Of a stretch of DNA of 64,000 nucleotides, positions 3,650-52,521 are shown piece after piece. Within the stretch, counting starts at the first letter, position 1. The number at the start of each line of letters is the position of its first letter. The notes under the pieces were generated by a model, which did no database searches, had not been told where the DNA came from, and saw only the letters and a list, made by a program, of their open reading frames with translations. The DNA lies in NCBI RefSeq assembly GCF_026210795.1, contig NC_089439.1:3038001-3102000 (forward strand). Direction: 5' to 3'. This DNA comes from Rhizophagus irregularis. Taxonomy: Eukaryota; Glomeromycota; Glomeromycetes; Glomerales; Glomeraceae. Made by a program: the position numbers and the translations under genes.

Positions 3650-3976
3650 ATAAGGAGGAGAAAATAATTAATAAAGTAAAAAAGAATTATATACAGCGAA
3701 ATTTTTTTTTTTAGAAATAATAAAAATACGAATTAAAATTTAAATTTTGCGATAATACGAAAAATATGAAATAAAAGATTAAACCCGAAGGAGTAAATAA
3801 CGAAAGGTTGATGATTAAAACAATTAATAATTTGATAAAATAGTCTTTGAATAAATTTTAATTTTCGAAAAAGTGAACCGAAACGATTTATGGTGGCGAA
3901 TTAACATGAAAATAAAAAATTTAGTATGTACATACAATTATATGTCGTAAATCTATTATTAATTCAGTAAATTACG
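3650..3976 (+). repeat. second copy of the 1180-1456 duplication (fork head 3' UTR)
   Basis: This is the parent-like copy: the 3' UTR of the minus-strand fork head gene, running into its last codons (stop at 3959-3961). It is about 50 bp longer than the other copy because of small insertions. Confidence 0.85.
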
Positions 3977-5924
3977 GATCTTCATTGAACCAGCCACTGA
4001 CGAATTAGTCGAATGAATATCACTAATTGCTGGATGTTCATTATAATAATACTCCATTTTAATTTCTCTTTTAATTGATGAATCACTACTTATATTCCAT
4101 TCAGAACCTGGTCCACTACTTCTCGATTCAACAGGATAAGGTGATATATCTATATGTAAATTGGAATGATCCGACGAAGGATTACTTACATCTGTTGTAT
4201 CAGTTATATTGAATACATCACATCTTCCAGAATTTGACCCGCTTGCATTCACATTCACACTTGAAGCATAATTTGAAGGTGAAGGAGAAGTTAAATTTGT
4301 AAAATTTGGTTCAGATGAATGTCTTTTCGGAACATAAAATTTTTTTTGGGTTAAACTCGATGATAAAGGAGGTGTCATTAAAGACGTAGAAGAGGAAACA
4401 GACACTGGAGAGGGAACCGTTAATGTTAAAGGTATTCGTTCTCCATTATTTCCATTATGAGAGGGATAATGATATTGTTGTTGATGATTTAATATATGAT
4501 GAGGATGATGACGATAAGTACTTTCACTATCATCTTCAACTTCAACCAATCTACCCGCCATATTATTGTCAGATGGAGAAGTATCACTACCACCACTATC
4601 ATCATCACCAAGTCCTGGTCCACCCATCCCTGGATGTATACCAACACCTACTTCACCAGGTCTACGTTTTTGTACTCCACCCCTCGCAAATACACCATCA
4701 TGATAAGCAGACATATATTCCGGGTCAATAGTCCAATAACCTCCTTTACCCTTGCTCGCTGCAGATGATGACGTTGAATGACCTAATTCGGTATCTGAAC
4801 GAGGTACCTTTTTAAAACACTTGTTCAATGAAAGATTATGACGAATTGTGTTCTGTTTGTTTGTTACAAAGATTATAAAATAAGGGGTGGGAAAAAAAAA
4901 GAAAAAAGAAAAAATTTGGGTAACACAAGTTAAAATAAATAGAACAACATTACTAAAAAAAATTAAACAAGTTTTTTTTTTCTTTTTTTATAATAATAGG
5001 GATTAATCAGGGGTTACCCTAGAACCAGTTTTAGGCCAAGAAAGGGATTGGCGCCCTTTGACTAACCTGCCAACCGGTATCATCCGCTTTGTACAATTGG
5101 GGATATCTTTCCATTATCCATTGATAAACTTCACGTAGTGTTAATCGTTTGTCCGGTGAATCTAAAATGGCCTGAGCGATAAGTGATGAATAAGAAAATG
5201 GGGGACGTCGTCTTCGTCTAGGAGGTCTATTATTTAGCTCGGGCGTGACAGTTACAAAAGGTTCGGATATAACATTTTGTGTTGTGTGACTTCTTTGAAA
5301 TGGACGTATCGGAGTATGAGATTGTTGTGTTGATGATGGTTGATGTGTTGATGATGATTGTAAACTATATATCGGGGATGGTTGTTGTTGTGATGAATAA
5401 TTTTGTTGAAGTTGTTGTGTAGTTCTACGTGGGGACGGTTGTGCACCCGGAGAATTTTGTTGTGGATATTGTGAATAAGAAGAATAAGCAGGTTGAGAAT
5501 AATAAGTAGTTTGTGGAGATCTCTGCTGTTGTTGATGTTGATAATATGAAGGTTGTGAAAGAGGAGGTTGTGATGGAGGATTTTGAGTAGGAGTTGATGG
5601 TTGAGGAAGAGGTGAAGGTAAATAAGTGAATGAGGACGTTGAAGAAGAAGCAGAGTAAGGAGTTGAAGGAGAGTTACGATATTGTTCACTTGAAGGACTT
5701 TTATATCCAAAATTATCATAAGAAAGAGTACTGATGGGAGGTAAAGTTGGAAGTGTATTCATATTTGAACGCGGTGACTGGTAAGTAACAGTTAGTTGAT
5801 GTTCTTCTCGTTCGTGTCGTAAACGCGAAGATAATATAGTAGTCAAAGGTGGTTGTGGTATAGAAGTAGTTGAAGTAGAATAAGTTGTAGAAGAAGCGTT
5901 ACCAACGTTTGGGTACCGCGACAT
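3959..5924 (-). CDS. fork head (FOX) transcription factor
   Basis: Two coding exons, 5067-5924 and 3959-4852, are joined in phase 0 across a 214-bp GT-AG intron and give 583 aa. The fork head DNA-binding domain spans roughly residues 240-335. It starts [15 protein letters not shown], continues [15 protein letters not shown] at the exon end, and resumes [18 protein letters not shown] in exon 2, ending [13 protein letters not shown]. The intron therefore cuts the domain just before the recognition helix ([11 protein letters not shown]). About eleven extra Ser-rich residues separate the DNA-contacting helix from the GKGGYW wing. The N-terminal 230 residues are Ser/Gln/Pro-rich low complexity and the C-terminus is Ser/Asn-rich, as in fungal activators. 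It acts in the nucleus; target genes cannot be read from sequence. The start is the first ATG (5922-5924). The assignment to the FOX family is secure, the subgroup is not. Confidence 0.93.
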
Positions 5925-6606
5925 GTAGTTTATAAAAAAAATAACAACCTTGTCATATATATAGTCCCTCTATATACAAATATTATTATTATATAATTAT
6001 TTTTTTTTTTTGTTTTTTTATGTAATATATATATAATATATATATATATATGTATTTATATATATATTTATATTTATATTTATATATATTTTTATAAAAT
6101 AAATAAATAAATTTTTTATTTATTAGTAATTATTATTAAAAATATGCCGAAAATGAAAAAAAAAATTGATGTTGAGGGGGTGGGGGTCCTTTTTAAAAAT
6201 CAAGATAAAATTGATTCAAAGAGAAGACAAACTTTTCGTGTTGAAGTAAATTTTTTAAGGGGGGATGATATGCATAAATAAACTTTTGAAAAAAAAAATT
6301 ATAAATACACAAAAAAACTTTGACCCCAACCAAAAAAAGTGAGATAAAAAAATAATAAAAAATAATAAAGAGAAAAAAAAAAAAGAAAAAACTGAAAAAA
6401 AATCGGAATTCGGAATGTATCAAGTAAAAATGGCTGAACAACCCAAATTTATATATAAGTTTGTTAAATATTTGTTTATTTATTGACTAATACAGTGTTG
6501 TCTACTCCTTCAAGATAAGGAAGTTAAAAAAAAAAAATAGTTTAAAAAAAAAAAATTATAATACATACAATATAAATAATATAAATAAAAAAATAAATAA
6601 ATAAAA

Positions 6607-9152: not shown

Positions 9153-12073
9153 ATGAATAAACGTACTCGTGGAAATAGACCGATCGAGGCTTTTCAGTTT
9201 AATCAAAGAGACAATAGCCCTTTAGCGCCACGCGCTATTAAACCGATCGAGGACAACATTGAACGAACACCTGAATATCTTTCCTTCATGAAAAGTTTAG
9301 AGGACTTTCATAAATCCCATGGGTAAAAATTGGAAACTAAAAGTTATTTTCCTTCTGGAAACAAGTTTCCAATGAGCCATCTATTTCCTTTAATATTCTA
9401 AAGTCACAACTATCTCACTTTTCCTTGAAAATTTTTTGATAAATCAACTTTATTATCAGTACTACCTTACAAAGAGAGCCTGTTTTAGGTTCCAAAAAGT
9501 TGGATCTCTATAAAATTTATCGAATGGTAATTGCGAACGGCGGTTGCGAGAAAATTTGTGCCGAGAAAGCATGGAAAAAAATTTGCGAACCTTTCAATTT
9601 TCCTCAAACTTGTACAAACAGTGCTTACGTGATGAAGAATGTTTATATTAGATTTTTGGAAGCTTATGAATTAGAAAATCATTGGGGTAAGCCGGTCCCT
9701 TATGGAGGTCTACCTCATCGACCTGGTCCTCCAACTCCTCAACCGCAAGAATTATCATCTGCTACTCCTCAAGGTAATATTACTCCACCAAGAAGAGTTA
9801 ATTCACAAGATAATATGAAAAGTTTACAATCAATGCGTACCATACAAAGTTTACAAAGTGTAAAAGGTATATATATATATATAAAAATTACAAATTTTTA
9901 TGTTTTTATTAAAAATGTTATATTTAAAATTTTTATTTATAAATTAATTAATTAGATCCTGGAACTCCTGTTGTTCAATCCTATACTAGTTATGATCAAC
10001 ATAGTATTATAATCGATCAAATTATCGATAACGATGAAATAGAAGAAGATGGTATGATATATATATATATATATATATGTTTTCCAAAAGTTTATTTTTT
10101 TTTTCAAATTTATTTCAAATAATTTTATTAGGTTCTCTTTTGGGTGGAGGAAATAGTAATCGTATTCTTCTCGCTTTAAAATCTCAGTTACCTAATGAAA
10201 TTGATTGGGCATTTGAAGTATTGATAGAACTTTCAGAAGATGAAAGTATCACTTTTTACATGGATAAAATCCCCGGACTAATAGATAATCTTCTTACGTT
10301 TGTGGCTCCTTTTTATAAGGATATGCGAAAACTTACGGAACTGGCTAATGTGAATATTAAAGAAATGGGAAAAGATTTTGATTATATTGAATCTACGATT
10401 AAAGAATATTTTAGTTCACTAGCAAGAATTGAACAATTAAAGCGTATAATGCAAATATTTCTAATGTTTCGAAATCTTTCATTTTTGGAATATAATGCTG
10501 AAATGATGGCTACTTATAAGCCATTACGAAGATTCCTTATTGAAGGACTTAATTTACCTGAAATTACTCGTTTTTCGGAGTTAAGATATCATTGTTTGGA
10601 AACTGTAGAAAATATGTGTAAATTTATAGTATTGAAAAGTGGAAGGGAAGAACTTCTTTTAACATTACCAAAAATGATTTATTCCAATGATTCTGCTTTA
10701 ATCATTCGTAGTATTCGAGCCTTGACACTCTTAGCCTCCAACGAAAACAATGTAGAATTCATGCGGGAAATCGATTCTGACATGGTGGAACGTTTAGTCC
10801 AATTTTTACTAATCGATGATGATGAAGAATTAATTATTGCTGTATTGGATTGGTTTTATCATTATTCTACTTATGAGGAATCAGCTTGTAAATTAGCTCA
10901 AACGGCTCCTGGCAATTTCATACGACTTTTAATAAATTTTTTAAGACATGGAGCAAGTGATGAGAAATTCCTGCAAAATCAAAAACTTCCCGAAAAACGT
11001 CCATTCCAAATTCACGGTGAATTTGAAAACTTTTCGGAACCACATCGTACAATAGAATGGTATGCTTTTGTTTCATGATAGAAGAAACCTGATAAACTCG
11101 AGATTATATATATATATATATATATATATTTATTTATTTATTTTATTTTATTTTTATTTTTTTTGTTAGGCTAAAAAAGTATTATGAAGAATCTCAATCA
11201 GATGGTGTTTTACAAACAGATATTTGGTATGCTTACCGTGATCAATTTACGAATTCATCCGTACCAATGATGCCAGCTGCAGATGTTATTAAGAATGTTA
11301 ATGTAGCTTTCCCGGATTCTTCTGCAATCATGACAACAACAGCGGATGGAGCATCAAAATATCCTTTCTATTTTTTAGTCTTTTAATTATCAAAGATTTA
11401 TTTATGTATATATGTATATTTTTTCTTAATTGAAACCTACGTATATGATCCAAGGAATTAAACGAAGAAGATTTCCGGAAGAATTACCTGGAACTGGTAT
11501 AGATTTATTTTTAATAAATGAGATTATGTTTGATTGTTAATATTTGATTCATATTCTGTTCATTTAGTTCCTACATATCAATGTCGATGGACTGATTGTG
11601 AAAATGATGCGTTTCAAATTGATACTGATCTGTATAATCATGTGCTTAATGATCATATTAATAAGGAGCAAGAGATTAATTACAACTGTCACTGGATGGA
11701 TTGTAAACGTTTCCCTTATGGTTCACCAGATCGGTTAGTCGTTATTGCCCACGTTAAAACTCATTTCCCTGTTGAACCAGAGATTGAATCAGAAGGAAAG
11801 AGGCGCAAAGTAAAGACTACGAAATCTTCTGTGAATAAATATGGTAAAAATAATGGTATAATCAACCATAGAATTTATGTATCATCCGATATGAATGGTG
11901 ATGCTCTCGGAATTCCATTAACAGCATCCTTGATACTTAGAAATTTGTCTGTTTCAAGGAAAAATCTACATTATTTTGCTGCCTATGAACAAGAACTTAC
12001 AGAGATGTTGGCTAATTGTGTCGGTTTGTCCAAGCATTTAGCCGAAACATTAAGTAATTTGAGATCAGTGTAA
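9153..12073 (+). CDS. RSC9/ARID2-like chromatin remodeller subunit (ARID + C2H2)
   Basis: Seven coding exons: 9153-9322, 9460-9866, 9956-10051, 10132-11059, 11170-11358, 11441-11496 and 11568-12073. They give 783 aa with every junction in frame. Residues about 38-128 form an ARID DNA-binding domain (TPEYLSFMKSLEDFHKSHG, KLDLYKIYRMVIANGGCEKI, NSAYVMKNVYIRFLEAYE). A long helical armadillo-like middle region follows (exon 4), then a short KYMIQGIKRRR segment and two C2H2-type zinc fingers from about residue 619 (CRWTDC and CHWMDC with paired His). This order matches the Rsc9/ARID2 (BAF200) subunit of RSC/PBAF-type SWI/SNF complexes, which slide nucleosomes in the nucleus. The intron between exons 5 and 6 only keeps frame if read as an AT-AC U12-type intron. 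The start is the first ATG after the poly(T) tract; an intron interrupts the ARID domain early. Confidence 0.9.
11359..11440 (+). other. U12-type AT-AC spliceosomal intron
   Basis: The intron begins ATATCCTTT at 11359-11367, a perfect match to the minor-spliceosome 5' splice site. It contains a TTTCTTAAT branch-site-like motif at 11422-11430 and ends AC at 11439-11440, about 11 nt after the putative branch A. Removing these 82 nt joins TCA-AA to G-TAT and gives ASKYMIQGIKRRR in frame. No GT-AG pair in the interval restores the frame: the only nearby GT (in TTAGTC) leaves the wrong phase for the only AG (CCAAG) after the last stop. Confidence 0.85.
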
Positions 12074-17748: not shown

Positions 17749-19458
17749 TTAACCACCAAATTCCAAATGACCTTTAACAGCACTACCAACATTAGTTAAA
17801 TCAATCAAAAAAGTATCATGACCATACATTGAATCTAATTCATAATAAGTAACATCTTCATTTCCACCCATTCTCAAACATTCAGCAATTTCTTTTTGTT
17901 GCCAGCAAGGAAATAAGATATCAGATTGTACACCCAATATTAATGAAGGATGTTTTATAATTGATAACCCTTGTACTAAATCTTCCAATTCATTCTTATT
18001 TACATTTGATGCTAATGATGAAATATGCTTTCTCTCACTTGTTGATTTTAGAGAAGATTTTGTGAAAGATTCTTTTGACAGTGATGATGACGTATCACAT
18101 ATAACATGATGTGCATCATTATGTGATCTTGCATTAAACAATTTCTTTGTATTTGCAGAACGTAGGCGTTTCAATTTTTCTAGTACGGAACCTGACATGT
18201 CAAATATATCCATTGCTTTCGATATGTAAAGTAATGAATTTGGATCATATTGCAAACAAAATCTCTCTCCCTGATGGTCTAAATATGTTTCTATTAGGAA
18301 ATCAGGGCATAATGCTGGAGATTGCTCTTCGAATTGTCGCTTTCTTCCAAAGCGTTGTTCCCATTCTGGTCCAGATCGATAACTGATAGTGGCAATTTCA
18401 CGTGCCAATTTCATTCCAACGTGTGGTGGTATAGAATTATAATAGAAACCTTTATTCCAATTCGGATCTGCCATTAAAACTTGTCTTTGTGTATGTCTTA
18501 AAGCAATAGAATATGGGTGTGATCGTGCACATGCGGAAATACTAATCAAGCGAGATACACGATCGGGATATAACCAAGCAGAAGCTAAAGATTGCATTCC
18601 TCCCATACTAGAACCAACACTTGCATGTAATTTATTAATTCCTAGATGATCTAATAATAAAAATTGAGCTCGGACCATATCAAAAATAGTCAAAATAGGA
18701 AATCTTGTTGCGTATTTTTCACCATCAGACGGGTCGATAGATGATGGACCTGTCGATCCATAGCATCCACCAATCACATTGGTACATATAACAAAATATT
18801 TATTCGTGTCGATCGAGAGTCCAGGTCCTATAAAATTCTCCCACCACCCAGGCTGAACATTTTTTTCATGACTTTTAGCGTGGCTGCTTCCAGATAATCC
18901 AGTTTGAATTAAAATTGCATTGTCTTTTTTTTCGTTTAATTCTCCCCATGTTTCATATGCAATGCCAAGTTCGGGTAAGACACCGCCATAATCACACAAG
19001 AACGGTTCGTTATGATGGAAAAGAGAATATCCAGAAACAATTTTGTCATAAGCTGGTTCAGGGCCTCCATCTAAAGATCGAGTACGAGTCGTCAATTGAT
19101 CTATACATGGAAAACTTAAAGGAGGATTTGAACTTTTTTTCTCCCCCTCGAGTATGTTTGGTGGAAGTTCCTGTTTCTGTTGTTCTAATGAAGGTGGAAA
19201 TTCAAAGCTACTTAATGGAAGTGCATTATTATCCTTCGAAGAAGTATAAAGACCTATTAATCAATAGATTATGTTATTTATTTATCGTTACTAAAGATAA
19301 TATCAAAACAACGTACTTGTTCTTCGTATAAATTGTGTTGTTAAATGTTTATGAGTTAATAAATTTGTTGTTCGTTGATCGCGAAATTGTTTTGCAGTTT
19401 TTAGACAAATATTATTTGATTTTAGATGATGAAAAATATCGCGAAACAAAGTTGCCAT
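17749..19458 (-). CDS. mitochondrial serine/homoserine O-acyltransferase (MetX family, CYS2-like)
   Basis: Two coding exons, 19317-19458 and 17749-19253, give 548 aa. The first exon encodes an Arg/Lys-rich, acid-poor leader ([15 protein letters not shown]...) typical of a mitochondrial presequence. The body is an alpha/beta hydrolase with [17 protein letters not shown], the nucleophile elbow GSSMGG (Ser near residue 263), an Asp in GVQSDILFP and the catalytic His in YGHDTF. The segment [29 protein letters not shown] and the leader recall the fungal mitochondrial branch (S. pombe cys2, Aspergillus cysA), which acylates serine for cysteine synthesis. Cytosolic MET2 homoserine acetyltransferase is the alternative. 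About 90 residues between the lid and the last catalytic block are Ser/Lys-rich and look like an insertion. It converges on the Y14 gene. Confidence 0.85.
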
Positions 19459-20229
19459 TGCTAAATTAATTAAATTAATAAAAGATTATAATCTCTATTC
19501 ATATATATAATTTTTTTTCTATACCCTAAATCATTAGTAATCTCGGTCGAAAATCTGGCTATCACGTAATATGTTTATCAAATTATGCCATTTTTGGCGC
19601 AGCTTATTAGTCAGAATCCCATAATTCAAATTATTAAATAAAAATTCGGGCATTCTATAGCATAGATTCTACATCGACTGTACTTTACAGGATCTGTATA
19701 TAGTCAGTCACCCGTCTTTGTTTTCCAACTCAGACACAACGTTAAGGCTGGATGATGAAGTATAGTACTCTATCCGTAAAGGGATGTGTGGAATCAAAGA
19801 TCTCCAAATTTCCTTCGGGATGTTTGGAGATTATTTGATTCCAGTTGATGAACTTGCCCATAACTTTTCCAGCTATGTGGCGAGGATAGCAGTACAGTCT
19901 GACAGTCCTAAAAAAACTTTTTTTGCTATTATTTATCGGGTTTGGGAAGGGAGAAAGAGGAAAAATAATAATCTTTTCTTTTCATTGTGAAAATTTTGCT
20001 GGCGAAATACATTAGTTATATGATATACATGATATTACATGAGATAGAACTGATCAATTACAAATAGTAAATTATTTAATATTTTTTTTTTCGTTTGTAA
20101 GCCACACCAAAACAGTCTTCATATTATATAAATAAATAAAAATAATTTTTTTTTTTAACGCTGGTCTTAATTCCAATTCTCGTGAATATTAATTTTTGAA
20201 AAATTTTTAAGTATTACGTGGCCTTAATA
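19459..20229. other. gap with an unassigned coding remnant
   Basis: Upstream of the acyltransferase. An open stretch at 19784-19990 (plus) reads KDLQISFGMFGDYLIPVDEL and onward, with protein-like composition for about 50 codons. I cannot assign it and no splice-linked partner was found, so it is probably a relic. Confidence 0.35.
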
Positions 20230-22274: not shown

Positions 22275-23850
22275 TCATTCTTCCTCTTTTTCTATTGACC
22301 GTTTGTAAGCTGTGATCTTTTGTTCAATCTTATTTCTTCTCTGTTTAAGATTCAATCGATATTTCTTATACTAAATGGTAGATAATAAATTAGTTACGTA
22401 TAAAATTGGTTGCTAAAAAATGTAATTAATTTACCTTCTTGGAAGCTTTGTAGTCCTTCTTCTCTGTAGGTTTAAATACAGGATCCGCACGAATATTAGC
22501 GTGTGCATCTTTATATACTTTTTCAAGATCATCCGCACCAACCCCAGCTTCAATAAACTTGGAAAATTGTTTTTTAAATTTATCATCATCTTCTTCCTGT
22601 AGAATACGCATAAAATCGGCTACATGGCCACCATAAATGTATTTACGAAGGACTTCTGTATCAAGCGTTTTTGATTCGGCATCGTAGCCAGGAAACCGAT
22701 TTTCACCGTGAGGAATGAAAATACCACCATCACTTGCACCTTTAAGAGCTGCAAACACTTTAGATCCTGTAGATGTACGTTTTAAGCCTACATCCAAGAA
22801 AGCTTTAAAAGGGCGTGGAGCATCTTCAAGTTCTTCAATGGGTGCTACTTTACCGTCCGGTTCAGTGATGCCTAGATACTTGTCGGCTAATCCAAGTTTG
22901 GTGAGAACTCTTCGAGCTGCAAGCAATCCAGTGGCGTACGCTAATAATATTAAAATGTATTAGAACTAATCAATAAGCCTATAATCTTTTAATCCTTACT
23001 TACTTGCGGCCCAATTTGTAAGTCCAATTTTAATACCATATTTTTTTAATTCATGCGAATAAGCGGCCGTTAGGACAAAGTCTCCATCAAGTTTCGCATA
23101 AATAATTTGAACAATGACGTCCGTATTGGTGAAACGAACTACTAATCGGTATTTTGGAGAATTATACTTATTCTTTGCCTGTACAACAAGTCTTTTACGA
23201 GCATAATAATCGGTCTTGCCCTCTGTGAATCATAAAATAATTTAAAATTAAATATGATAAGATTTACTTGACAAATAGATAAATGAAAATTATTTAATAT
23301 CTAATTCTCGATCAGATAGGAGCAAAAGACTAAAGACTTTTGATCAACAAAAAAAATTCAGCTGAACTATGATATCATCATTATAGCTAGATTAAAATAA
23401 AGTTTTGACTTCCTTTTGTTACTACAAACATGCTCGTGTTTGCAATTGAACTTACCGCGTCTTCTACGATATTTGACCTGGTATCGCTTGAAATAAGCTA
23501 TTAGATAATAAAATATTATATTAATTATTGTATCAATAAAAATAAATAATAACACAATAAATTAATAATCTACCCTTATTCTTTACTGTCTTGACGAATG
23601 GCTAAAAGATTAAAGATTATCATAAGATTTTTGATTAATGCTTATTTTATTAATACGCAAAAATATCCAATTACACAAAAGAATGAATTCAAATCGATGG
23701 ATGATTAATTTTAATTAAATCAAGAACATTAAAATTTACAAAATTATTATTTTTTTTTCATTATGTTTAATTATTTTGATTCTCTTTCAAATATCTCTCT
23801 GATTATCATTCAATATAAAGTGTATTTATATATTTATGAAAACTTACCAT
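22275..23850 (-). CDS. RPL5: 60S ribosomal protein L5 (uL18)
   Basis: Six coding exons: 23848-23850 (only the ATG), 23574-23601, 23456-23497, 23004-23222, 22435-22940 and 22275-22370. They give 297 aa, the usual length. The protein begins [20 protein letters not shown] and continues [30 protein letters not shown] and [18 protein letters not shown], ending in a basic/acidic tail. uL18 binds 5S rRNA and enters the large subunit as the 5S RNP with uL5. Exon 1 holds nothing but the start codon, so the first intron follows ATG directly. A C/D snoRNA lies in the intron between exons 3 and 4. A TCACGTGA palindrome sits about 117 bp upstream of the ATG. Confidence 0.97.
23307..23386 (-). ncRNA. intronic box C/D snoRNA (LSU rRNA 2'-O-methylation guide)
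   Basis: It lies in the 233-bp intron (23223-23455) of RPL5, sense to the host gene. Read 5' to 3' on the minus strand: box C ATGATGA (23381-23375), a 13-nt segment, box D' CTGA (23361-23358), a C'-like TTGATCA, then an antisense element and box D CTGA (23315-23312). The 18 nt immediately before box D (TTAGTCTTTTGCTCCTAT) pair without a break, with two G-U pairs, to LSU rRNA ATAGGGGCGAAAGACTAA. One nucleotide before box D', CATAGTTCA pairs with LSU TGAACTATG. A weak TCTAG/TTAGA stem flanks the boxes. The rRNA sequences are from memory. Double-guide structure and a ribosomal-protein host intron are both typical. Confidence 0.85.
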
Positions 23851-24668: not shown

Positions 24669-26331
24669 ATGGAGAAATTGATTTTAAACCAGCAGAATAG
24701 ACCGCGGTTACTAGAAATTATACAGTACATCAAAAGTGCAAAAAACATCGTTGTGATCGTAGGAGCCGGAATAAGCGTGTCAGGCGGTATACCCGTAAGT
24801 AAATTTAATTCTGCACGAGCTATTTTAGAAAGGATAAAAGCTTTTATAAAGATATAACGCGCTTTAGAACATAAAAATAAAGGCTGACTGTTTTTGATAT
24901 AATTATAATTTTGAATTAACTTATGTTAGGACTTCCGGTCCCCCGATGGCCTATTTGCTGAGATAATGAAACAGTATCCCGGTGTCTTCTCTTCGGGTCG
25001 CGATTTATTCGATTTATCTAGGATTTTTATATCTTCAAGGTCATTAACGACGTTTTATAAATTTATGGCTTTGTTAAAACAACAAGTCATTAGTGCAAGA
25101 GTAACGGCTACACATCATCATTTTGCAAAGCTAAATAATACTAATAAGCTTTTGCGAGTATATTCACAAAACGTTGACAATTTAGAAGAACGTGCTGGAC
25201 TCACCATAAATGATTGTAATAATATACGGTCTTCCGATCGTATTGTAAAATTACATGGTGAAATTGATAACGTATGGTGTAATATATGTCATAAAACTTT
25301 CCCATTTTCGTCGGATGTTATTAATGCATTTAAAGATGGAACCCCCCCAGAATGTCAATATTGTATGGAACAAGGTGAATATCACAATTGTTTGAGATTT
25401 AAATTATTGCTATTGAAAATTTTCTCAAGTAAATTTATTTATAGCGGAGAAGGCAAAAATATCCGGGAAAAGAGTTCGAAATCCCAGAAGTCCAATGCTT
25501 CCAAGGCCAAATATATTACTGTACAATGATTTTGAAAGGACAGTTGGAGAAGAAATTGGTCGGGTCGCTTATCATGATCAACGTAAAGCTGACTGCCTAT
25601 TAATAATGGGAACGTCACTTAAAGTTTCTGGATGTAAAAGTTTAGTCAAAGATTTTTCTAAAGCGGTCCACAACAGAGGCGGAAAAGTGATATTCATTAA
25701 TACGACTGAAGTGGCGACAAATAATTGGGAAGGTGTTATCGACGTTCATATTCAAGGAGCGTCCGACGATTGGGCCGAACTCGTTGAGGCCGAGCTCGAA
25801 AAAGAGCCAGCAAACAAGAAAAGAAAACGATCATGCGAAGATGATGGACAGAAAATAAAAGAGGGAAAGCTAAAAAAACTTGCCAATAAAGACGATAAGG
25901 TTGTAGGAATTAGGCAAGGGCAGCCAACCCTTCAATTTAAAAAACGAAGTAAGCTTCAAGGTATTAATTTTTTATATATAAATATGCTAATGATAGATTT
26001 ATAAGTTCTAATTTTCGAAAAAAAAACTAAATTAGAAGGTAAAACAAAGAGGTCCAGAGGTCGAGAAGCAGATGATAATGAAGAGGAGCGGAAAATTACC
26101 AGAAAACGACACAAATCCGCTGACAGTGACGATAAAGTTGCGGTAACGAGCAAGGTGAGCCGGAATTCGGGAAGGCGTATTAAAACACAAGGTAAGATTT
26201 ATATCTAATATGATGGATATATTAAATGGCTGTGCTGAGTTTAAACAAGTTTTTTATTACATTTGTCTTATATATATATATATATATATTTATTTAAAAA
26301 AATCACTTTAGAAAATAAGCGAAGACATTAA
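24669..26331 (+). CDS. NAD-dependent sirtuin, Hst3/Hst4 type
   Basis: Five coding exons: 24669-24794, 24930-25374, 25445-25960, 26036-26191 and 26312-26331. They give 420 aa. Sirtuin motifs in order: GAGISVSGGIPDFRSPDG (residues 33-49, split by intron 1), SQNVDNLEERAG (121-132), catalytic His in KLHG (His151), a zinc ribbon with CNIC (159/162) and CQYC (184/187), then LLIMGTSLKVSG and FINTTE for NAD binding. The LKVSGCKSLVKDFSKAVHNRGGKV stretch and PRPNILLYND resemble fungal Hst3/Hst4, which remove H3K56 acetylation in chromatin. After residue 300 comes a long Lys/Arg/Asp-rich tail with possible nuclear signals (KKRKRS), spread over exons 3-5. The start is the first ATG in frame; an in-frame extension upstream lacks ATG. 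Confidence 0.92.
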
Positions 26332-28803: not shown

Positions 28804-31374
28804 TTATACATTTTGCATATTAAACACAAATGGTTTTGAATGTTCTGAATAAAATGAGGAAGTATCAACATTATTATATGTATTGATATCATTGTTGAGA
28901 TCTTCGCTACCTTCAACCTTAGTAGGATTGTACTTCAAATAGAAGTTAAGCCCTATAGCAAAAACTAGTGAAATACAAACCAACGGAGGTGCAAGGACAT
29001 CATCTAATATAAATACATTATTATATAATTGTTATTATTATTATTAATGAACTAAGTTTAACATAAAAATTAAAACTTACCATAAGGACCAGGTTCTCGA
29101 TTATTGATCATTGTAAGTCTCTTATTATATTTTATTAATGAATATATAAGCGCAGCGACACTAATAATTGCGTAAATAAATCCACACATGTACCCAACTC
29201 TATCATCACCACTAGTATTAAATAATGCTAAAGAAAATGAGCCCAACAATACACTAAATCTCATCCAGTGGAAAAAGGTTCTCTCGTTGGCAAAGAAAAC
29301 TTTTGGTTCCACACGTACGGGCGTAATAATCTTATGCGGCATACTAATATTTGGTGGCAAAATAACTTCTTCGGGTCCTGAACGTTTTTTTCGTTGAAAT
29401 ATTTTACGAATAGTTTTAACACCCATCGGTCTTTGTTGTTCGTCCTCTTCCTCCTCTTCCTCTTCTTCGAGTAAAGAAGCATCTTCGTTACCTCTTGCTT
29501 CTTCAATATTATAGTCAACAGCTTTGCCTTTGTTTTTCCTGTCTCTTCTACCACCTACAACTTCGACGTTAATAACGTTTTTTCCTGACATGGTACGCTT
29601 TGGACGTGCTACGTGTGAAGTAGATGATTCAGGATAATCCTCCTCCTCCTCTTGTGATTGACGAGCATTCGGTGGTTTTAATATATCTTTATCAATATTT
29701 GGTAACTATATATAATAAAAAAAAAATTTAAGTTAAAGCTATCAATGTAGAATGAACAAAATATACAATTAAATTTACGAACCCAATATGGAAGAGAAGG
29801 TGCATGGGAAGTAAACACTGTGGCAACTCCGTGAACATATTTCGAAAATTGAGGAGCTTCTTCAACTAAATGACTACTAACTAATTCTTTAACCCAAGCC
29901 GGCTCCTGTTCTCCTTCATCTAACTTGAGTTTGACTTCCAATACGGCGAAAGGAAATTTAGCACATTCAGTTGATGGTAATTTACTAAACATATCGCCAT
30001 CAATATCATTGCGACGCCACTCATCTTCCCCACGACGGCGTGTATTGTCAAAATTATCCTCGCGAACCATATAAAAATCAGTATCGAGTGATATTCTGAC
30101 ATGCTGATCGCCAGGAATTTGAAATGCCATACGGTTATAATAAGTACGAAGAACAGGCGATAAGTTCTTTTCCTTGATGATATCTTGTATATCTTTGATT
30201 AGTTTTTGAAATTGTTGAATATCTTCATCTGTTTTTGAAGGATCTTCCTTCATTTTATTGATCGCTTTTTCCATTGCATATTCTCCTTTTAAGAAAGCAT
30301 TAACATGCTTCTCTTTTATCAAGAATCTCTCCTTGACTTCATCTTCTCCCTGTTCACGTATTTTCCTCTCCACAAAGATGTCTTTGGTGTTCTTTTTATT
30401 ACCATACCATCGTAACCTTATAATTTGATCACCAGGTTTACGATCAACTTTATCTTGATAAAGTTCAAGCACTTCATTATCGAAATATATAGAAGTAATC
30501 GAAGAATCAGTACCAGGTTTATAAACCAAAACGGGAAGATGACGAAGAATAGAAGTTTTAACTTCCATTATATTGTCCTGATGCACCCAATATTTATTCG
30601 TTTGAATTAAGGCTCTCTCTTCGGATGTAGAAGGTTTCCATGATGTCGACAAAGCTGAAAAATTAGGGGTGGATGGTCGTACATCGGATTGATCACCTAA
30701 CCCTTGATGAACAATGTGATACAACCTGGAAAGTTGAACAATTATTGGCTCAAAGGTTTCTTTATAGAATGGGCACGCGTTCAAACGGACGCTGAACATG
30801 GCACGCAGATTGTAACTTGTACGTCTAGAAATAAAATAAATAAAACTCATTAGACTCGTAAGCGAATAAATTTGAAAATAATAGTTTTTTTCGCTACCTG
30901 TCGTGCTTTTTAATAATTTTCATTATGCCCGTATAATTTAAACGGGCGTATTTTGCGAGCTCATTCAGCTCCTCGGTGATGTCATTAATCTCCCGTTCAA
31001 CTTCGGCATATCTATCCGGCACATTCATAGAAGGGACATTGCTTATAGATGCGACGGAATTTTCACAATGTTGAACACGACCCTTGATTTCTTCATATTT
31101 CGAGTTTTGGAAAGCATAAATCTAACAGAATAGTATAAGAGAAAAAATTGTCAATGAATTAATAATTAGCCATTGATATATACAAATGCTTTCTAATGCC
31201 GACCTTTTCCAATTCTTTGTCCAACTTCTCAACAAATTCACTCTCATCTTTTTCCGTATATCCTCCTTCCTTTTTCTCCCCCCGTTTGAGATGTTTTTTT
31301 AAACCGTCATAATCAAGATAATATTCATTCCATTCACCGTAGAGGGCCACTCGAAGCTGACTACCGAATTTCAT
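28804..31374 (-). CDS. VTC4: vacuolar transporter chaperone 4, polyphosphate polymerase
   Basis: Five coding exons: 31204-31374, 30898-31121, 29783-30824, 29081-29705 and 28804-29003. They give 753 aa (yeast Vtc4 is 721). The protein starts with an SPX domain (MKFGSQLRVALYGEWNEYYLDYDGLK), which senses inositol pyrophosphates. The central tunnel domain has the catalytic residues of the Vtc4 type: IIRLRWYGNK, FVERKIREQ, ERFLIKEKHV, FAVLEVKLKL and FSKYVHGVA. An acidic, then basic linker follows, then a C-terminal DUF202-like membrane region with three hydrophobic helices (MRFSVLLGSFSLALF, YMCGFIYAIISVAALIYSL, LVCISLVFAIGLNFYL). Vtc4 makes polyphosphate from ATP at the vacuole membrane and moves it into the lumen. 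Conserved catalytic residues separate it from the accessory Vtc2/3 paralogues. In mycorrhizal fungi this pathway stores and carries phosphate to the plant. Confidence 0.95.
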
Positions 31375-35596: not shown

Positions 35597-36828
35597 TATA
35601 AGGAAAAATACTTGATCCCAAACTTTATTTCCTTAATAAGTATTTATGCGTTACTTTACTGGAACGAAATGGTTGAGAAACGACAAAATTCTTTGAAAAA
35701 TATGGAAATTGTATAATACAGAAGATGAACACAAATGTAGGACACTGAAAAAGTCGCGAGAGTACTACGAAGAATCCAGGAGTCGCACAGTCGGTTTAAA
35801 AAAACCTAATCTCGTGATGTGTCAATTATCACGTTTACTATATTTACTATTGTTTATTGTTCATTTTATATCACAGCCAAGCCACATAATGAACTTCTAA
35901 AGCCACTGTGACAGTGTGACAAATGTGACAAAGCCACAAAAAAAAACAAGAATGCACACAAATCAGGATTGATCGTTACATTGATACTGCGGCGAGAGTC
36001 AATTCAAATAATGTTTTATGCCGACTCTCGACTCTAATCGAGGATATCACAAGATCACGCGGAAAAAATTTTTTTTTTTTTTGAACAATAGAAATCAAAA
36101 ACTTAATTTTTTCCATCGAACAAAAACGGAATGAATATAATGCACAATTGCAAAAATAAACTTTCCATTTAATTGATTTTTGATTTTCACAACAAAGTAA
36201 TAATAGATGATCGGAATCAATCTTTCGTATCGAAAAAAAAATAAAATTTGTGCAATAATTCGATGAACAAGCCACACTATTACCAAAGAATTATAGTATA
36301 TAAAGTGTTAGGTTCAATGAAAAAATTTCTATTATAAAAAACTTCTATTACAAATATTATTTCTTTCGTAAGCAACGAAAACGAACAATTATAAGATTGT
36401 TGTGGACGTTAAAAAATTTTCTTCCTTTAAATATTCAATTGTTCTCTTTCACCCAAAAATGTAGAAAATGGGGTATGTTGCAGGGGAATTTCAAGATCTA
36501 TCTACGACAATCACCTGCAGCTCCTCAGCCAATCCAATTTGAACGAAAATAATGACAAAATGTTCAAATGTTTGTTATACCAAGTTTAGAGCCCCCGTTA
36601 AAAGAAATTTTACTTTTTTACTTTTTGGTTCACTTTTCTTCAAGCCAAAAAACCACCTTTGTCCATTCGTTCTTTATTTGTAATATAGTTTCAACACAAA
36701 CTTTAAAAAGTAATAATAACAAAACCCAACAAAATAAGGTTTCTCATATACTTGAAACTTGCAAATATTTTTGCAAGGAGCTATTTATAAAAAATACAAT
36801 AGTAACTTCCTATTCATTGGTTTACCAT
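35597..36828. other. divergent intergenic region, DUF2433 / BTB genes
   Basis: Short GTGACA/TGTGACA words recur at 35905-35930. An in-frame ATG at 36568 extends the BTB frame upstream by 87 codons of unlikely composition, taken here as 5' UTR. No other gene. Confidence 0.45.
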
Positions 36829-39082
36829 ATGACTTCAAACCTTGTCAAAGAAGATAATATAGCAGATATCGAATTTACACAGTTGCTTGAAGATTTTAGC
36901 TTAGCTTCCAACCTGGATAATATTAGTTCTAATCACGCTGCAACGTCAACAACAGCAGCTCAACAAAATCGAACTTCACCATTCACTATGTCTCCTCTCC
37001 TCACCTTAACTCAAAAGGAGAGTGGGAACACGAGAGATTACATTAACGATATTGTTTCTTCGTCCGTTTATCCTCCACCCGCACAGGATCCTCAAAGGGT
37101 ATTACGTCAAATGATGAGCCTTTGTAAACATATTTATTCAAGAGGTTTAATTGAAGGAAGCGGAAGTGATGTAACAATTAAGGCATTTGATAAAGACTAT
37201 CATTTACATAGAATCATTCTTTATCAAAATTCATATTTTTCCGTTTTACTCGAAGGTCCGTGGAAAGAAAGTGGGCAAAAAGATATAGAACTTCGATTTG
37301 ATGATGAAAACATCACACGTGATGCATTTGAAATAGCACTAGGACGTTTATATGGTAGATTAGATGAAGTTATTTTACCTTCACAGGTACTGAGTCTTCT
37401 CGCTACTGCATCTTTCCTTGACCTCCAAGATTTATGTGAAATGTGTGTTGAGGTGATATTAAGAGATATTAAAGAAGATACTGTGGTACATTATTTAACT
37501 TTTGCAACTTCACATTTTTATGGTACACATTCAGAAAAGATTACGGAATCATGTTTTACTTATCTATGTAGGGAAGGATATGATAATTTGAGGCTTAGGC
37601 CTGCTTTTTTGACATTGCCCGCTGAATGGCTTAAGAGGGTGATTGAAAGTGATGCATTCTGGGTACCTAGTGAATATGAAAGGTATTTGTTTGCAAGGGA
37701 TGTTGTTAGTAAAAGAAGGAAGATTGCGGCAGAACAAAAAAGACATAATTTAGTGTCTTCTTCACTAGTGAATTACACAGATTTAAGTAATTTATCTTCG
37801 GACATTTCTTTTCCCACTTCTCCCACATCACCAACAATTACAAATTCTCCCATTAAAGCAAAAAGATTTCCAGATTCGACATTCTCTTATCACACAAGAA
37901 GGTCTGCATCAGTTAGCACATTAAGTTCCATATGTTCATCAAATTCTCTGCAGGCTGAAAGCGATGAAGCAATTTATACTGCTATATTCACTTATGCAAT
38001 ATATTATGCTCACATGGCCTTTGAAGAATTAACTGCAATTTCACATGATTGTGACAGTATAACAAATGTCCCATTAGCTCCAGATTATATATTAAAGGAC
38101 GCTCTATGGCATCAAATAGATTTGCGTAATAAGATTGAAAACGCTGCTGAAACTGATGTAACATTGGGCATATCTTCTTCCGAAATACCTCCTAGTTCGA
38201 CTGGAGTTCATTTTGAAATCCCATCGGACGATACTACACATATAGGAGAAGCATTGACCGGTTTAGAGGACATGATTGGAGGTGGAACGAAAGCAATGAA
38301 GGATGGCGAAGGTAGAGGAAGTGTGGAATATTCATTATTCGCTCCTTTCAGATTCAGTGTTGAATTTGCGGATGTCGCGAAATTAAAAGAAAAACAGCGA
38401 GTTTATTCAGGAACAAAATTTTATGCAGGGTAAGTAGAAAATAACGAAAGGGAATTTATGAAATTTTGTTTATTCACTAAAAAATTTTTGATATTTGTAG
38501 ATCTAATTGGAATATGTATATTCAGAAAATAAAAACTCCCCGTAAAGGTATACAACTTGGAGTATATTTGCACCGTCATTCAATGCCTGATCCAAGTTCA
38601 TCTTGTGGAAATAATACAAATTCTTCTACAATGGTGAATGGATCATCCACCAATAAGAGTTCACCATCATCATCACCAGGAACCGAAGAAAGATATCGTC
38701 AAACTATTCACATGAAAATTAATAACGAAAAAAGTTTTTCAAGATATGCTGATAAGAGAAAAACGGTTAGAACTTGGTTCAAAATTTTTTGTCCTGCCAG
38801 AGGTCCTAGCCATGTTTTAACCCAGTTCCAGAGTAGTCCTGATAATTTTGCATTAATGCAAAGTTGGGTAGGTGAATTATTTTATTAATTTTATCTCGTT
38901 TCTTTTATTTTAAGTTTTTTATATTTTAGATATGCTCTTTGATTTTATAGGGATGGCGAAGTTCGAGTCTCTGTCAAGATGATTATCTTTTGGACGTTCG
39001 TGATTTTGATAGTTCATCATCATCAATAACTAATAATTCTTCTTCAACATTAAAATTTTCTGTTGTAATGGGACATGTATAA
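36829..39082 (+). CDS. BTB/POZ-domain protein
   Basis: Three coding exons: 36829-38429, 38501-38867 and 38951-39082. They give 699 aa from the ATG at 36829; an upstream in-frame ATG at 36568 would give 786 aa. A BTB/POZ fold occupies roughly residues 110-215 (SGSDVTIKAFDKDYHLHRIIL, SYFSVLLEGPWKES, LPSQVLSLLATASFLDLQDL). A BACK-like helical stretch follows (VVHYLTFATSHFYG, LPAEWLKRVIESDAFWVPSE). The layout resembles germ-cell-less/BTB-type substrate adaptors that link targets to Cullin-3 ubiquitin ligases, but no substrate domain (Kelch, MATH) is visible. The C-terminal part has Ser/Asn-rich loops and a segment ending KFSVVMGHV that may be a folded beta domain. A Cullin-3 role is inference from the family. 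Confidence 0.88.
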
Positions 39083-47130: not shown

Positions 47131-49636
47131 ATTATTAATATTTTATTTTATTTTTTTTTATTACAAAACCCTTAAAATACTGCAAAATTAATAAAATATA
47201 CTAAAAGGTAAAATTAATATCTTATAATTACAATTATATAAAAAACATAAAGTTGCAATTATCAAATATGATTAGTAAAATCTAATTGTAACTATATTTC
47301 TATGATTAAAAGGTATTTAAAAAATAAAAAAAAGGTTTATTTTAACATTTTTTTTTATTATAGGACTCTTAGGACATTTTGAAATTAATAAAATACCTTA
47401 AATTGGTTTAAAAGATATTTATTAAAAAGTAAAAAGAAAGGTTTTTTAAAATTGAAAATATTAATAACTGTTATTAATACTTCATTTTTTTTTTATTGTG
47501 AAATCTTCTAAATACTTAAAAATAGCATTAAAAGATATTTAAGGCAATTTTTTTTATTTGAAAATATTTTGCATACTAGTTTCAAAAAATCAATAAAATA
47601 ATAATATAACATAAATAGATAAAAAATATAATAAAATATTAATATATTATAGTTTAATAAATAGATTTTTAAATTAATAAAATTTACAAATTGCTAATAT
47701 ATTTTTTTATAATCAATTCTATAAATAATGAATTATTTAATAAAAAGTTATCAATCAATATACTGATATGTTAAATAATAAATAATTTATTAAAATTTGA
47801 TTGTATTTAAAATAATATTCTTATATTAAAAGCTATTGTATTTTGATTTATACTATTAATTGATTATAATTAGCAATATGCATATATTCTCTTACCAATA
47901 TCTTCAATATCTTTTTAAATTACAATAATAATACCTATTAGCATCTAATTAGATACTGATTTGTTATTATCAAACCAGTAAAAATCAGCATTCTTAATAT
48001 AGAACCTAGCATTTAAACAGATAGCATTCTTAATATAAAACTTAGTTTATAAATAAAATAAAAATAAGAAGAAAATAAAGGTAATTAAATTAAAAAGTGT
48101 GTAGTAATTAGGTAGTAGTAATTAGATTATATATTATAAAGTAATATTCAGATTATAGAGTAGTAATTAAATTATAGAGTAATGATTGGACTTTTTGCAA
48201 ATAAAGAGGAAAAACTGCTAAAAAAAAAATTTTTTTTTTTAGTTAATGTTAATTCTAGACAAATTACAATATTTGGAGTATTTTTAATACAGTATATAAA
48301 TATAAATTTAATTTTTCTGGTAGTTTTTCCCCTTTCTATTACAGAGAGTCTATGTTCAGGTTACAAAGTAGTAAAGTAGTATTCAGATTATAGAGTGGTA
48401 CTATAACCTATTCTACAGTAAGTAATATATTACTTTTTGATATAATTATATTAAATAGTAGTATACCACTATATTAAATATTAAAAAAATATAAAATAAA
48501 TATTTCAAATATAACTTTTAATTAAAACTTTACTAATAAAAGAATAAATTAAATAAATTTAAGAATAATTTGTATTAATTTAAATAAAAATAATTATGAA
48601 TTTCATATATAATATTTAAATTGCAACATTAAGCAACTGAAGACTTTTAATATTTTAAAAAATACCAAAAAATATGCAAATTAATCATTTTTATAGCATA
48701 AAATTTTCTCAAAATCTCAAGCATTATAAATTCTTATATAATTTTTATATATTGGCTAATCATCTTGGTACTTTAAGAATTTTCTGTTAAAATTATCATA
48801 ACTAGGCTATAATGTTGTAATTAGGTAGTAAATATAATAATTATACTGTTTAAAAATGGTAGGATACTGGTAGGATACTGGTAGGATTTAATTTTGTACT
48901 AAGTTTTATTTGAAAAATAAAACCACCTTTAATAATGGATTATTATGACAAATAAAAGAGCCGATACCGAGACCAATAATTTAAAGATTGATCTACACAA
49001 CATAGATTTTCATTATAATTAATTAGTCTCGAAATAAAAAAAAAGTAATGTATTTATATTTAGGTTGTACGACTTTTCTATATATATAATGCGATCAAAA
49101 AAGTGTACCAATAAAAACAAATACAAAATGTTTAAAATGAATTTGTAAAAAAAATAGAACAAATTACATACTTTTACATATGTTTAATCATCCCTATATT
49201 TAACTTTTTTTTTTAAAAAAAAAAATGACGAATCTTTTTATATATTCGTTAATTTTGTGCATTTTCACGAGTTATTGTTATCACATTAAAGAGAATAATT
49301 ATGTTCGCGTGTGCATAATACGTCGTTTTTGCGTTGTTAGATTAATATGGCTTATAATATTATACCAATCATAACAAGTCCGAAAGGAGTCATAAAATTC
49401 CGGCTTATCAAGCACTTTTTTTTTTGATTAATAATACTTTATTGGTACAAAATGGAAGTATTCCATTTTCCGGAAGTTTACAAATTTAATTTGATTACTA
49501 AGTTGGATCGGATCAAGCAGATCGGACGTAATTATTATATATAAAGAAATGCTCGATACAAGGGAAAAAAAAAAAAAATTTGAAAATTTAAATTTCATAA
49601 ATACCAAAAATCCAACCTTTTATTATCGTTTAAAAA
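47131..49636. other. extremely AT-rich gap with degenerate local repeats
   Basis: Three diverged copies of an AT-rich segment (near 46880-46915 plus 47121-47200, 47330-47400 and 47440-47530) share AAATATTA..AACT..TATTAAT followed by poly(T). ATTCAGATTATAGAGTAGTA words recur at 48145-48180 and 48380-48400. An 11-bp unit GGTAGGATACT repeats about 2.8 times at 48858-48888. No gene until 49637; the last 300 bp are presumably promoter. Confidence 0.5.
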
Positions 49637-50785
49637 ATGTCTGTTCAAACAATTGTAATCGTTGGAGGCGGCTATGGGGGTTACGCAGTTGCCCAAAAAC
49701 TTGCCAGTAAATTTAATAAATCTCAATCTCATCAAATTATTTTAATTGAAAGAAAATCTCATTTTTATCATAGTGTTGCGGGATTAAGAACGGTAGTTGA
49801 AGATGGATTTGAAGAGAAAGTATCCATTCCATATGATCACTTATTTGATAAACATGGACAGGGTAAATTAATTCATGGTACTGTAATAAAATTAAACAAA
49901 AATGATCTTATTGTAAGAACAAATGATGGAGAAGAACAAAATATCACATTCGAAATCGCCGTGATTGCTACTGGAAGTAATTATCCCCGTCCTGCTAAAT
50001 TTGACGCAGAGAATAAAGAAGACGGTACTAAAGAGATTATAAGACAACGTGAAGCTGTGAAAAATGCCCAAAAAATTTTAATTGTTGGAGGCGGACCCGT
50101 CGGTATTGAATTGGCCGGTGAAATAGCATCCGTTTATGAGAATAAAAAAGAAGTTACACTTGTGCATGGAGAAGACAATTTACTTTCCCCTAATTTCCCG
50201 AATAAATTAAGAGATTCACTTGCAAACCAGCTTAAAGATTTAAACGTTAAATTAATTCTTGGGGATAGAATCGATTTTCAAAAAAATAATATCGGAGATG
50301 GATTATCGAAATTAACAATTACGACTGAAAAAGAGCAAGTTATTGAATCTGACGTACAATTTGTTGCTATTGGAGCAAAACCAAACACATCATTAGTTGA
50401 ATCATTAAATGGTTCTTTAGTAGACGAAAATAGTCATTTAGTTAAAGTTAAACCAACTCTCCAATTAGATTTAAATGACGAATATAATCATATCTTTGCT
50501 ATTGGAGATATCACAAATGTCCCAGAAACCAAATTAGCCTTTAGAGCTGGATTACATGCCGATTTAGTTAGCAAAAATATATCATCCTTTATAGATAATA
50601 AAAAATTGGAAGAATATAAACCTATGAAAGAAACTATGTTTGTTACTATAGGAAAGAAAGGTGGTGCAGGCCTTTTACCAATGTTTGGTGGATTGGTTGT
50701 CGGATCAATGATGGTTAGAAATTTAAAGGGAAAACATCTTTTTGTTGATAAATATCGGAAAGAACTTAATGCTCCTACACAATGA
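49637..50785 (+). CDS. AIF/FSP1-like FAD-dependent NAD(P)H oxidoreductase
   Basis: A single exon, 382 aa. The N-terminal dinucleotide fold TIVIVGGGYGGYAVAQKLA binds FAD, and a second one, KILIVGGGPVGIELAGEIA (about residues 150-170), binds NAD(P)H. ATGSNYPRP and the FAD-binding block FAIGDITNVPETKLAFRAG complete the pyridine-nucleotide disulfide oxidoreductase type 2 pattern. No redox CxxxxC is present. The proportions match the AIFM2/FSP1 (AMID) group and its fungal relatives rather than mitochondrial NDH-2, which is longer. Such enzymes reduce quinones at membranes. Residues 345-365 (GLLPMFGGLVVGSMMV) are hydrophobic and may contact a membrane. It has no introns, unlike most genes here. The start is the first ATG after an A-rich leader. 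Confidence 0.92.
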   Translation: MSVQTIVIVGGGYGGYAVAQKLASKFNKSQSHQIILIERKSHFYHSVAGLRTVVEDGFEEKVSIPYDHLFDKHGQGKLIHGTVIKLNKNDLIVRTNDGEEQNITFEIAVIATGSNYPRPAKFDAENKEDGTKEIIRQREAVKNAQKILIVGGGPVGIELAGEIASVYENKKEVTLVHGEDNLLSPNFPNKLRDSLANQLKDLNVKLILGDRIDFQKNNIGDGLSKLTITTEKEQVIESDVQFVAIGAKPNTSLVESLNGSLVDENSHLVKVKPTLQLDLNDEYNHIFAIGDITNVPETKLAFRAGLHADLVSKNISSFIDNKKLEEYKPMKETMFVTIGKKGGAGLLPMFGGLVVGSMMVRNLKGKHLFVDKYRKELNAPTQ

Positions 50786-51501: not shown

Positions 51502-52521
51502 TTATTTATAGAAAAAATAAGCATCATCAACTGGTTTTGAGGCAATTTTGCGATTACGAGTACTTCTACGTAATCCTGTTTCTAATGAATTTGATGCTGG
51601 AGATGATGTTATTTCTTTCTTTTTTGTGGATGATGAAGGTTTTAATAAAGTAATGTTATTATTATCATCATTATCAAAACTCTCGATATTCTTAAAAGAA
51701 TTTTGTGGCGATGACGATGACGAGAGTGAAGAATTAGAAATAACTGTTGAAAGATCAGAAGCTTCTTTCTTTGATAAATGAGAATTTGTATAAAATTCAT
51801 TAATAAAAGCTGTCTAAAATAAAAGAATTTATGAAAAAAGAATAATAAAATGATTAAATACAATGGATTCATAAAAACTTTCTTATTAAATTCTGATATT
51901 TCGTATCGATACAATATAATTTACCTTTATACCTTGATGAATATTAGAAATGTTTTCATTCTCTAATTCTTGATTGATAATAATTTTATTTTCCTCACCT
52001 TCATTATTAACTATTATATGACTCTCACAGTCATTACCTGCGAAGAAAATATGACAAGTTACAAATATCATTAAATTATAATAAAATAATAATAATAATA
52101 ATAATAAAATATTACCTTGAAAATTCAATTTATTGTCATTTTCATTTTCAATATTGTCAATAACTAAATTTTGGTTATCTATGTTCATATTATTATTTTC
52201 TTTATCAATTAGCACATCATTTTTTTCTTCAACTTCTCGCTGTTGCGGTGTTATACAAGTTGTCGATGATGGTGATGTCAACAAATTTTTTTGTCTGGGA
52301 AAATAAATGTAAAATCCTTCTAATAATTCAGGATCATCTTTAAAAAGATTTTTAACAATATCATGACAAAAACTTTCACTGATTTCTTTTCTCTTAAATG
52401 ATCTCATAGTCTCGCAAAATTCATTAAATATTTTAGGTTTCTTACATCGATTCTTAACTTCTCTTAAATAGGCTAATGCAATTTCTATACCTTTTTCTTG
52501 TTTTAAATTTTGATGAGACAT
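51502..52521 (-). CDS. small protein with a Sin3-like PAH domain
   Basis: Three coding exons: 52116-52521, 51925-52037 and 51502-51813. They give 276 aa. Residues about 12-72 (IALAYLREVKNRCKKPKIFNEF, KRKEISESFCHDIVKNLF, DDPELLEGFYIYFP) have the length, spacing and hydrophobic pattern of a paired amphipathic helix. These are the four-helix modules by which Sin3 corepressors grip transcription factors. Nothing else of Sin3 is present (no further PAH, no HDAC-interaction domain). The rest is Asn/Asp/Glu- and Ser-rich with a basic block TRNRKI near the end. It could be a free-standing decoy or adaptor, or a remnant of Sin3; multiple intact exons argue for a live gene. Confidence 0.8.

Follow-up and report, generated by a model that had tools for sequence, protein, structure and literature searches.

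A predicted U12-type AT-AC intron in the ARID2/RSC9 gene of Rhizophagus irregularis

A stretch of 64,000 nucleotides from the genome of Rhizophagus irregularis (contig NC_089439.1, positions 3,038,001 to 3,102,000; the whole stretch is referred to here as the window) raises the question of whether one intron of a protein-coding gene is removed by the minor rather than the major spliceosome. The gene, identified as ARID2/RSC9, a subunit of PBAF/RSC-type chromatin remodellers, is located at 9153-12073 on the forward strand, where seven exons and six introns, five of them GT-AG, define one intact frame of 783 residues. The remaining intron, at 11359-11440, begins with AT and ends with AC, and is very probably a minor-spliceosome (U12-type) AT-AC intron.

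The initial annotation, which was made from the sequence alone, stated that this intron opens with an exact U12-type AT-AC donor and has a branch site followed by AC about 11 nucleotides on, all of which was confirmed to the base. The donor, ATATCCTTT, conforms to the U12-type form [A/G]TATCCTTT at 9/9 bases. The branch site, TTTCTTAAT, agrees with TTCCTTAAC at 7/9 positions when compared strictly, both departures being C to T, and at 9/9 positions once C/T is permitted at those two. A strict motif was defined as a 9/9 match to ATATCCTTT, a 9/9 branch site (C/T at positions 3 and 9, A/G at 8) and an AC at the right distance; this motif is present once in the window, both strands included, versus none in 100 first-order Markov windows. 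Removal of the intron joins the exon end ...TCAAA to GTATATG..., with the lysine codon split AA|G in phase 2, and yields ASK-YMIQGIKRRR in frame, as had been proposed.

In minor splicing generally, the 5' splice site is recognised by U11 and subsequently by U6atac. At this locus, U11 and then U6atac would recognise ATATCCTTT, U12 would recognise TTTCTTAAT, and splicing would join AA|G as the lysine that precedes YMIQGIKRRR. The intron length, 82 nucleotides, is not divisible by three, and retention is predicted to add eight codons before a stop (ASKYPFYFLVF, then the stop codon), such that the product would be 605 residues long and would lack the zinc fingers. We infer that RNA is spliced at 11358/11441 from the sequence signals, homology at the junction, and the presence of small nuclear RNA (snRNA) genes.

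The position of the junction was examined by scoring 661 candidate introns (96 GT-AG, 63 GC-AG, 219 AT-AC and 283 AT-AG), with donors at 11180-11479 and ends up to 11492, by summed alignment to one stretch each of yeast RSC9, the RSC9-like chain 23cp and ARID2. The AT-AC pair 11359-11440 ranked first, with a score of 264, compared with 253 for the runner-up and 213 for retention. When any dinucleotides were permitted (donors 11330-11394, ends 11400-11474), two other cuts scored 266, several tied at 264, and cuts about 8 bases off scored 262. Since these scores are nearly equal, homology locates the junction only to within about 10 bases, and the exact position is settled by the splice motifs. 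In the alignment to yeast RSC9 (6k15_M), GASKYMIQGIKRR lies opposite GKKRFVIKGIQPR without a gap at the junction, and removal of the intron restores the end of the RFX-like region.

The identification of the host as an ARID/RSC9 gene, also made in the initial annotation, was borne out by Pfam matches to the ARID domain (83.9 bits, cut-off 24.1) and to the C2H2 finger model Zap1_zf1 (28.2 bits, cut-off 27.2), together with alignments to ARID2 and RSC9 structure chains. The top matches among solved structures are ARID2 7vdv (125.4 bits, mostly to the ARID domain), 23cp (106.7 bits) and yeast RSC9 6k15 (68.3 bits); 23cp, which is named as a putative chromatin structure-remodelling complex protein, was taken for an RSC9 relative, and the RFX-like region can be aligned to both the 23cp and yeast RSC9 chains. 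In common with ARID2 (of PBAF) and yeast RSC9, as represented by chains 7vdv, 23cp and 6k15, the protein has an ARID domain, a central region, a putative RFX-like region and C2H2 fingers, whereas at 783 residues it is far shorter than the 1835-residue ARID2 chain 7y8r_L. A search of the genome with 462 of the 783 residues, the ARID part being excluded, returned three matches with an expect value of up to 0.001, all of them exons of the same locus, and the gene is apparently single-copy. No relative came up when exon 4 was compared with genome_contigs and viral_contigs, both of which consist of bacterial, archaeal and viral sequences. A frame-broken pseudogene was ruled out by the intact frame.

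Minor-spliceosome components and further putative minor introns

Rfam and Pfam families were used to search the genome (146,748,485 bases, 32 contigs) alongside 14 control genomes, those named being bacteria and archaea. A search for the four minor snRNAs, which had been suggested as a check on the initial annotation, placed all of them above the Rfam gathering score: U12 at 68.9 bits, two copies of U11 at 71.9 and 55.5 bits, U4atac at 55.0 bits and U6atac at 79.9 bits. None of the four passed any cut-off in the 14 control genomes, the named controls all being prokaryotes. The U11-48K zinc finger was matched at 32.5 bits (cut-off 21.1), although this is weaker evidence because one control genome also passes the same 25-position model. 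The U11 copies start with TAAAAGGGTGTGT, and, with G-U pairs counted, AAAGGGTGT of U11 can form pairs along the full nine bases of ATATCCTTT; likewise, TCCTTTCT from 11362 is able to pair with AGAAAGGA of U6atac. An Sm-type site is present in both U11 copies and in U4atac, and U4atac and U6atac can form 16 consecutive pairs in one run. The assignment of the intron to the U12 type has held up on motifs, geometry, protein homology and the four minor snRNAs of the same genome.

Several observations weigh against this assignment. A loose motif (at least 8/9 at the donor and at the branch site) is not enriched in the window, where there are seven distinct donors (13 rows) versus a simulated mean of 5.97 and maximum of 13; the loose motif hence proves nothing, and the weight rests on the strict match coinciding with the place at which protein homology calls for a junction. 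The RFX DNA-binding region falls below its Pfam cut-off (21.9 versus 27 bits), the alignment to chain 23cp is interrupted by a one-residue gap three positions ahead of the junction, and ARID2 aligned across the RFX-like region at a negative score (-1.4 bits). Duplex energies at the donor are unexceptional, ranking 235 (U11a), 283 (U11b) and 187 (U6atac) among 2903 gene windows, and that of the branch site with U12 ranks 1806 of 2903. A simple pattern search of the U12 match turned up no Sm site, and the SCNM1 finger gave matches under the cut-off only. CENATAC (PF14968) was unmatched in the genome, a weak negative given that the same search matched nothing in any genome and thus had no positive control. 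Finally, the genome-wide pattern TATCCTTTN{25,55}TTCCTTAAY gave 14 matches versus nine for its reversed-pattern control, and ATATCCTTTN{25,55}TTTCTTAAY, which has a weaker branch form, gave 12 versus 12. With counts so near to the controls, the only informative step is to splice the matches and test for homology.

Homology testing covered L018, L020, L022, L023, L025 and L027-L030 of the 14 matches and L037, L039, L041 and L043 of the 12. It points to at least six other putative minor introns at which homology clearly extends over the junction, two of these being AT-AC, and to a seventh with weaker support. Alignments demonstrated homology over the spliced junction for PP2A-B55 (L029), for an STK24/25-like kinase (L025; junction GT|PYWMAPE) and for an AKTIP-like protein with an AT-AC intron (L027), while in HEATR5/Laa1 (L020) and a nucleoporin (L023) the junction falls inside the Pfam match range. 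Mtg1 (L043), also with an AT-AC intron and with the branch site TTTCTTAAC, aligned without gaps over DAR|IPLS, the AC having been picked from two by homology; its branch A is 24 nucleotides away from the AC, which places it among the longest spacings observed. The alignment for a GMPPA-like protein (L028) spans the junction, yet is weak there. TTTCTTAAY is the branch-site form in one of the six clear cases, as it is in the ARID2/RSC9 intron, which is itself one of the 12 matches to that pattern (L037).

The remaining matches were less informative. Spliced frames of L018 and L030 are open and have no Pfam family, L039 has an open frame with no family over the cut-off, and the match of L041 (inositol polyphosphate kinase) begins only at the junction. 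In L022 an EF-hand scoring under the Pfam cut-off begins downstream of the junction, which is itself crossed only by a weak chain match; L022 is a probable AT-AC minor intron directly before that EF-hand, in a frame that may resemble a calcium-channel tail. The matched stretches of L034-L036 are near-identical.

A separate observation concerns the snRNA genes themselves. The U12, U4atac and U6atac matches (L001, L004, L005), a U3 small nucleolar RNA in the window (19674-19907, with the upstream copy at 19617-19623 on the forward strand) and six U2 genes (L046-L051) are all preceded by the sequence ATCCCATAA at a distance of about 55 to 70 bases. It appears to be a promoter element that the snRNA genes of this fungus have in common. 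TCCCATA occurs four times over both strands of the window. Five of the six U2 genes over the cut-off share one contig, and are therefore probably copies of each other. As to the two U11 copies (L002, L003), that of 71.9 bits has the variant CCCACA upstream, at -54; no such element was seen upstream of the 55.5-bit copy, which may consequently be less active.

Alternative explanations

The AT-AC motif could feasibly be a chance occurrence, with the major (U2) spliceosome using a nearby GT-AG or GC-AG pair instead. Some GT-AG pairs do leave an open frame, but the best of the 96 tested scored 213, equal to retention, and the best of the 63 GC-AG pairs scored 223, whereas the AT-AC pair reached 264; the initial annotation's assertion that no GT-AG combination serves is substantiated for these 96 pairs. 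Moreover, no GT donor among those listed fits GTRWGT, better-looking sites such as GTATATATG at 11406 being situated beyond the stop, and the failure of the strict motif to appear in any of the simulated windows speaks against chance. This explanation is considered highly improbable.

The U2-dependent class of AT-AC introns has an ATAAG-like donor. Excision of the intron by the major spliceosome as a member of this rare class has in its favour that such introns exist, so that the spliceosome in use cannot be told from AT-AC ends by themselves, as is stated in the text of PMC8280824; however, the donor ATATCCTTT is of the U12 form and is accompanied by a U12-type branch site 11 nucleotides from the intron end, which renders this scenario barely credible.

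A further proposal is an addition to, and compatible with, minor splicing of the ARID2/RSC9 intron, namely that slow splicing and retention tune the level of full-length ARID2/RSC9 or yield a finger-less short form. The length of the intron, with a frame that stops at once on retention, would suit such a role, as would the relatively high basal retention of AT-AN minor introns in human cells that is described in the text of PMC8280824. No sequence mark of regulation was noticed at the intron, though, and the proposal is regarded as rather unlikely.

Gene model and neighbouring frames

Coordinates of the gene and of the intron signals are collected in Table 1. Outside the gene, a Pfam scan covered 10 of the window's 29 long frames. 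Families were found in frames at 3962-5969 (-), 17752-19260 (-), 22429-22959 (-), 29681-30919 (-), 36556-38430 (+), 49634-50782 (+), 51889-52620 (-) and 59596-60636 (+), and comprise forkhead (in two pieces), alpha/beta hydrolase, ribosomal L5/L18, VTC, BTB, pyridine nucleotide-disulphide oxidoreductase, paired amphipathic helix and ABC transporter; the frame at 25417-26001 has no Pfam family.

Table 1. Features of the ARID2/RSC9 gene and its predicted U12-type intron (window positions).
Feature	Position	Strand	Remarks
Exon 1	9153..9322	+	start codon 9153
Intron 1	9323..9459	+	GT-AG
Exon 2	9460..9866	+	ARID domain (residues 42-127) spread over exons 1-2
Intron 2	9867..9955	+	GT-AG
Exon 3	9956..10051	+	
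Intron 3	10052..10131	+	GT-AG
Exon 4	10132..11059	+	central region; aligns with chains of ARID2 and RSC9
Intron 4	11060..11169	+	GT-AG
Exon 5	11170..11358	+	bulk of RFX-like region
Intron 5 of 6, predicted U12-type AT-AC	11359..11440	+	82 nt, phase 2
5' splice site ATATCCTTT	11359..11367	+	9/9 donor bases
Branch site TTTCTTAAT	11422..11430	+	branch A at 11429
3' splice site AC	11439..11440	+	branch A 11 nt away
Exon 6	11441..11496	+	RFX-like region end
Intron 6	11497..11567	+	GT-AG
Exon 7	11568..12073	+	C2H2 zinc-finger region, C terminus, stop TAA

Minor splicing in Rhizophagus irregularis

The text of Larue and Roy (2023; PMC10639083) reports 205 minor introns in R. irregularis, equivalent to 0.272% of 75,377 annotated introns, and in the same species the complete set of four minor snRNAs as well as orthologues of ZMAT5, RNPC3, SNRNP35 and SNRNP25; for Basidiobolus meristosporus it reports 249 minor introns. 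Animal/plant-type 5' splice and branch-site signals, the four minor snRNAs and, probably, minor-spliceosome proteins are features that the published set shares with the present case; that text gives counts and no intron list. No report of 11359-11440 was seen in literature on minor introns in this fungus and on ARID2 minor introns, the public intron table lying outside this coverage. The claim in the initial annotation that the fungus keeps the machinery is supported, albeit already in print. Because minor introns and snRNAs of R. irregularis had been reported in PMC10639083, the biological surprise is gone: retention of the minor spliceosome in a glomeromycete is already published, and the ARID2/RSC9 intron adds one member to a known kind.

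Animal and plant AT-AC (A-type) minor introns have the same ATATCCTTT donor, a TTCCTTAAC-like branch site and an AC end; unlike these, the intron studied here has TTTCTTAAT as its branch site, with two positions that differ, and CENATAC is unmatched, if only in a weak search. According to the text of PMC8280824, CENATAC promotes AT-AN splicing in human cells. Given at least three homology-supported AT-AC introns (ARID2/RSC9, L027 and L043) and the weak negative for CENATAC, it was considered whether the AT-AC minor introns of this fungus, including that of ARID2/RSC9, are spliced without CENATAC, which human cells require for the AT-AN class. This is distinctly unlikely, but if true would mean that the fungus deals with A-type minor introns by some other route.

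The ARID2/RSC9 intron would represent a clean single-gene fungal example, and a good test gene for minor splicing. Since the zinc fingers of a remodelling subunit would require correct splicing, the efficiency of minor splicing should be readable from a single reverse transcription polymerase chain reaction, and gene models that are limited to GT-AG introns may shorten such genes.
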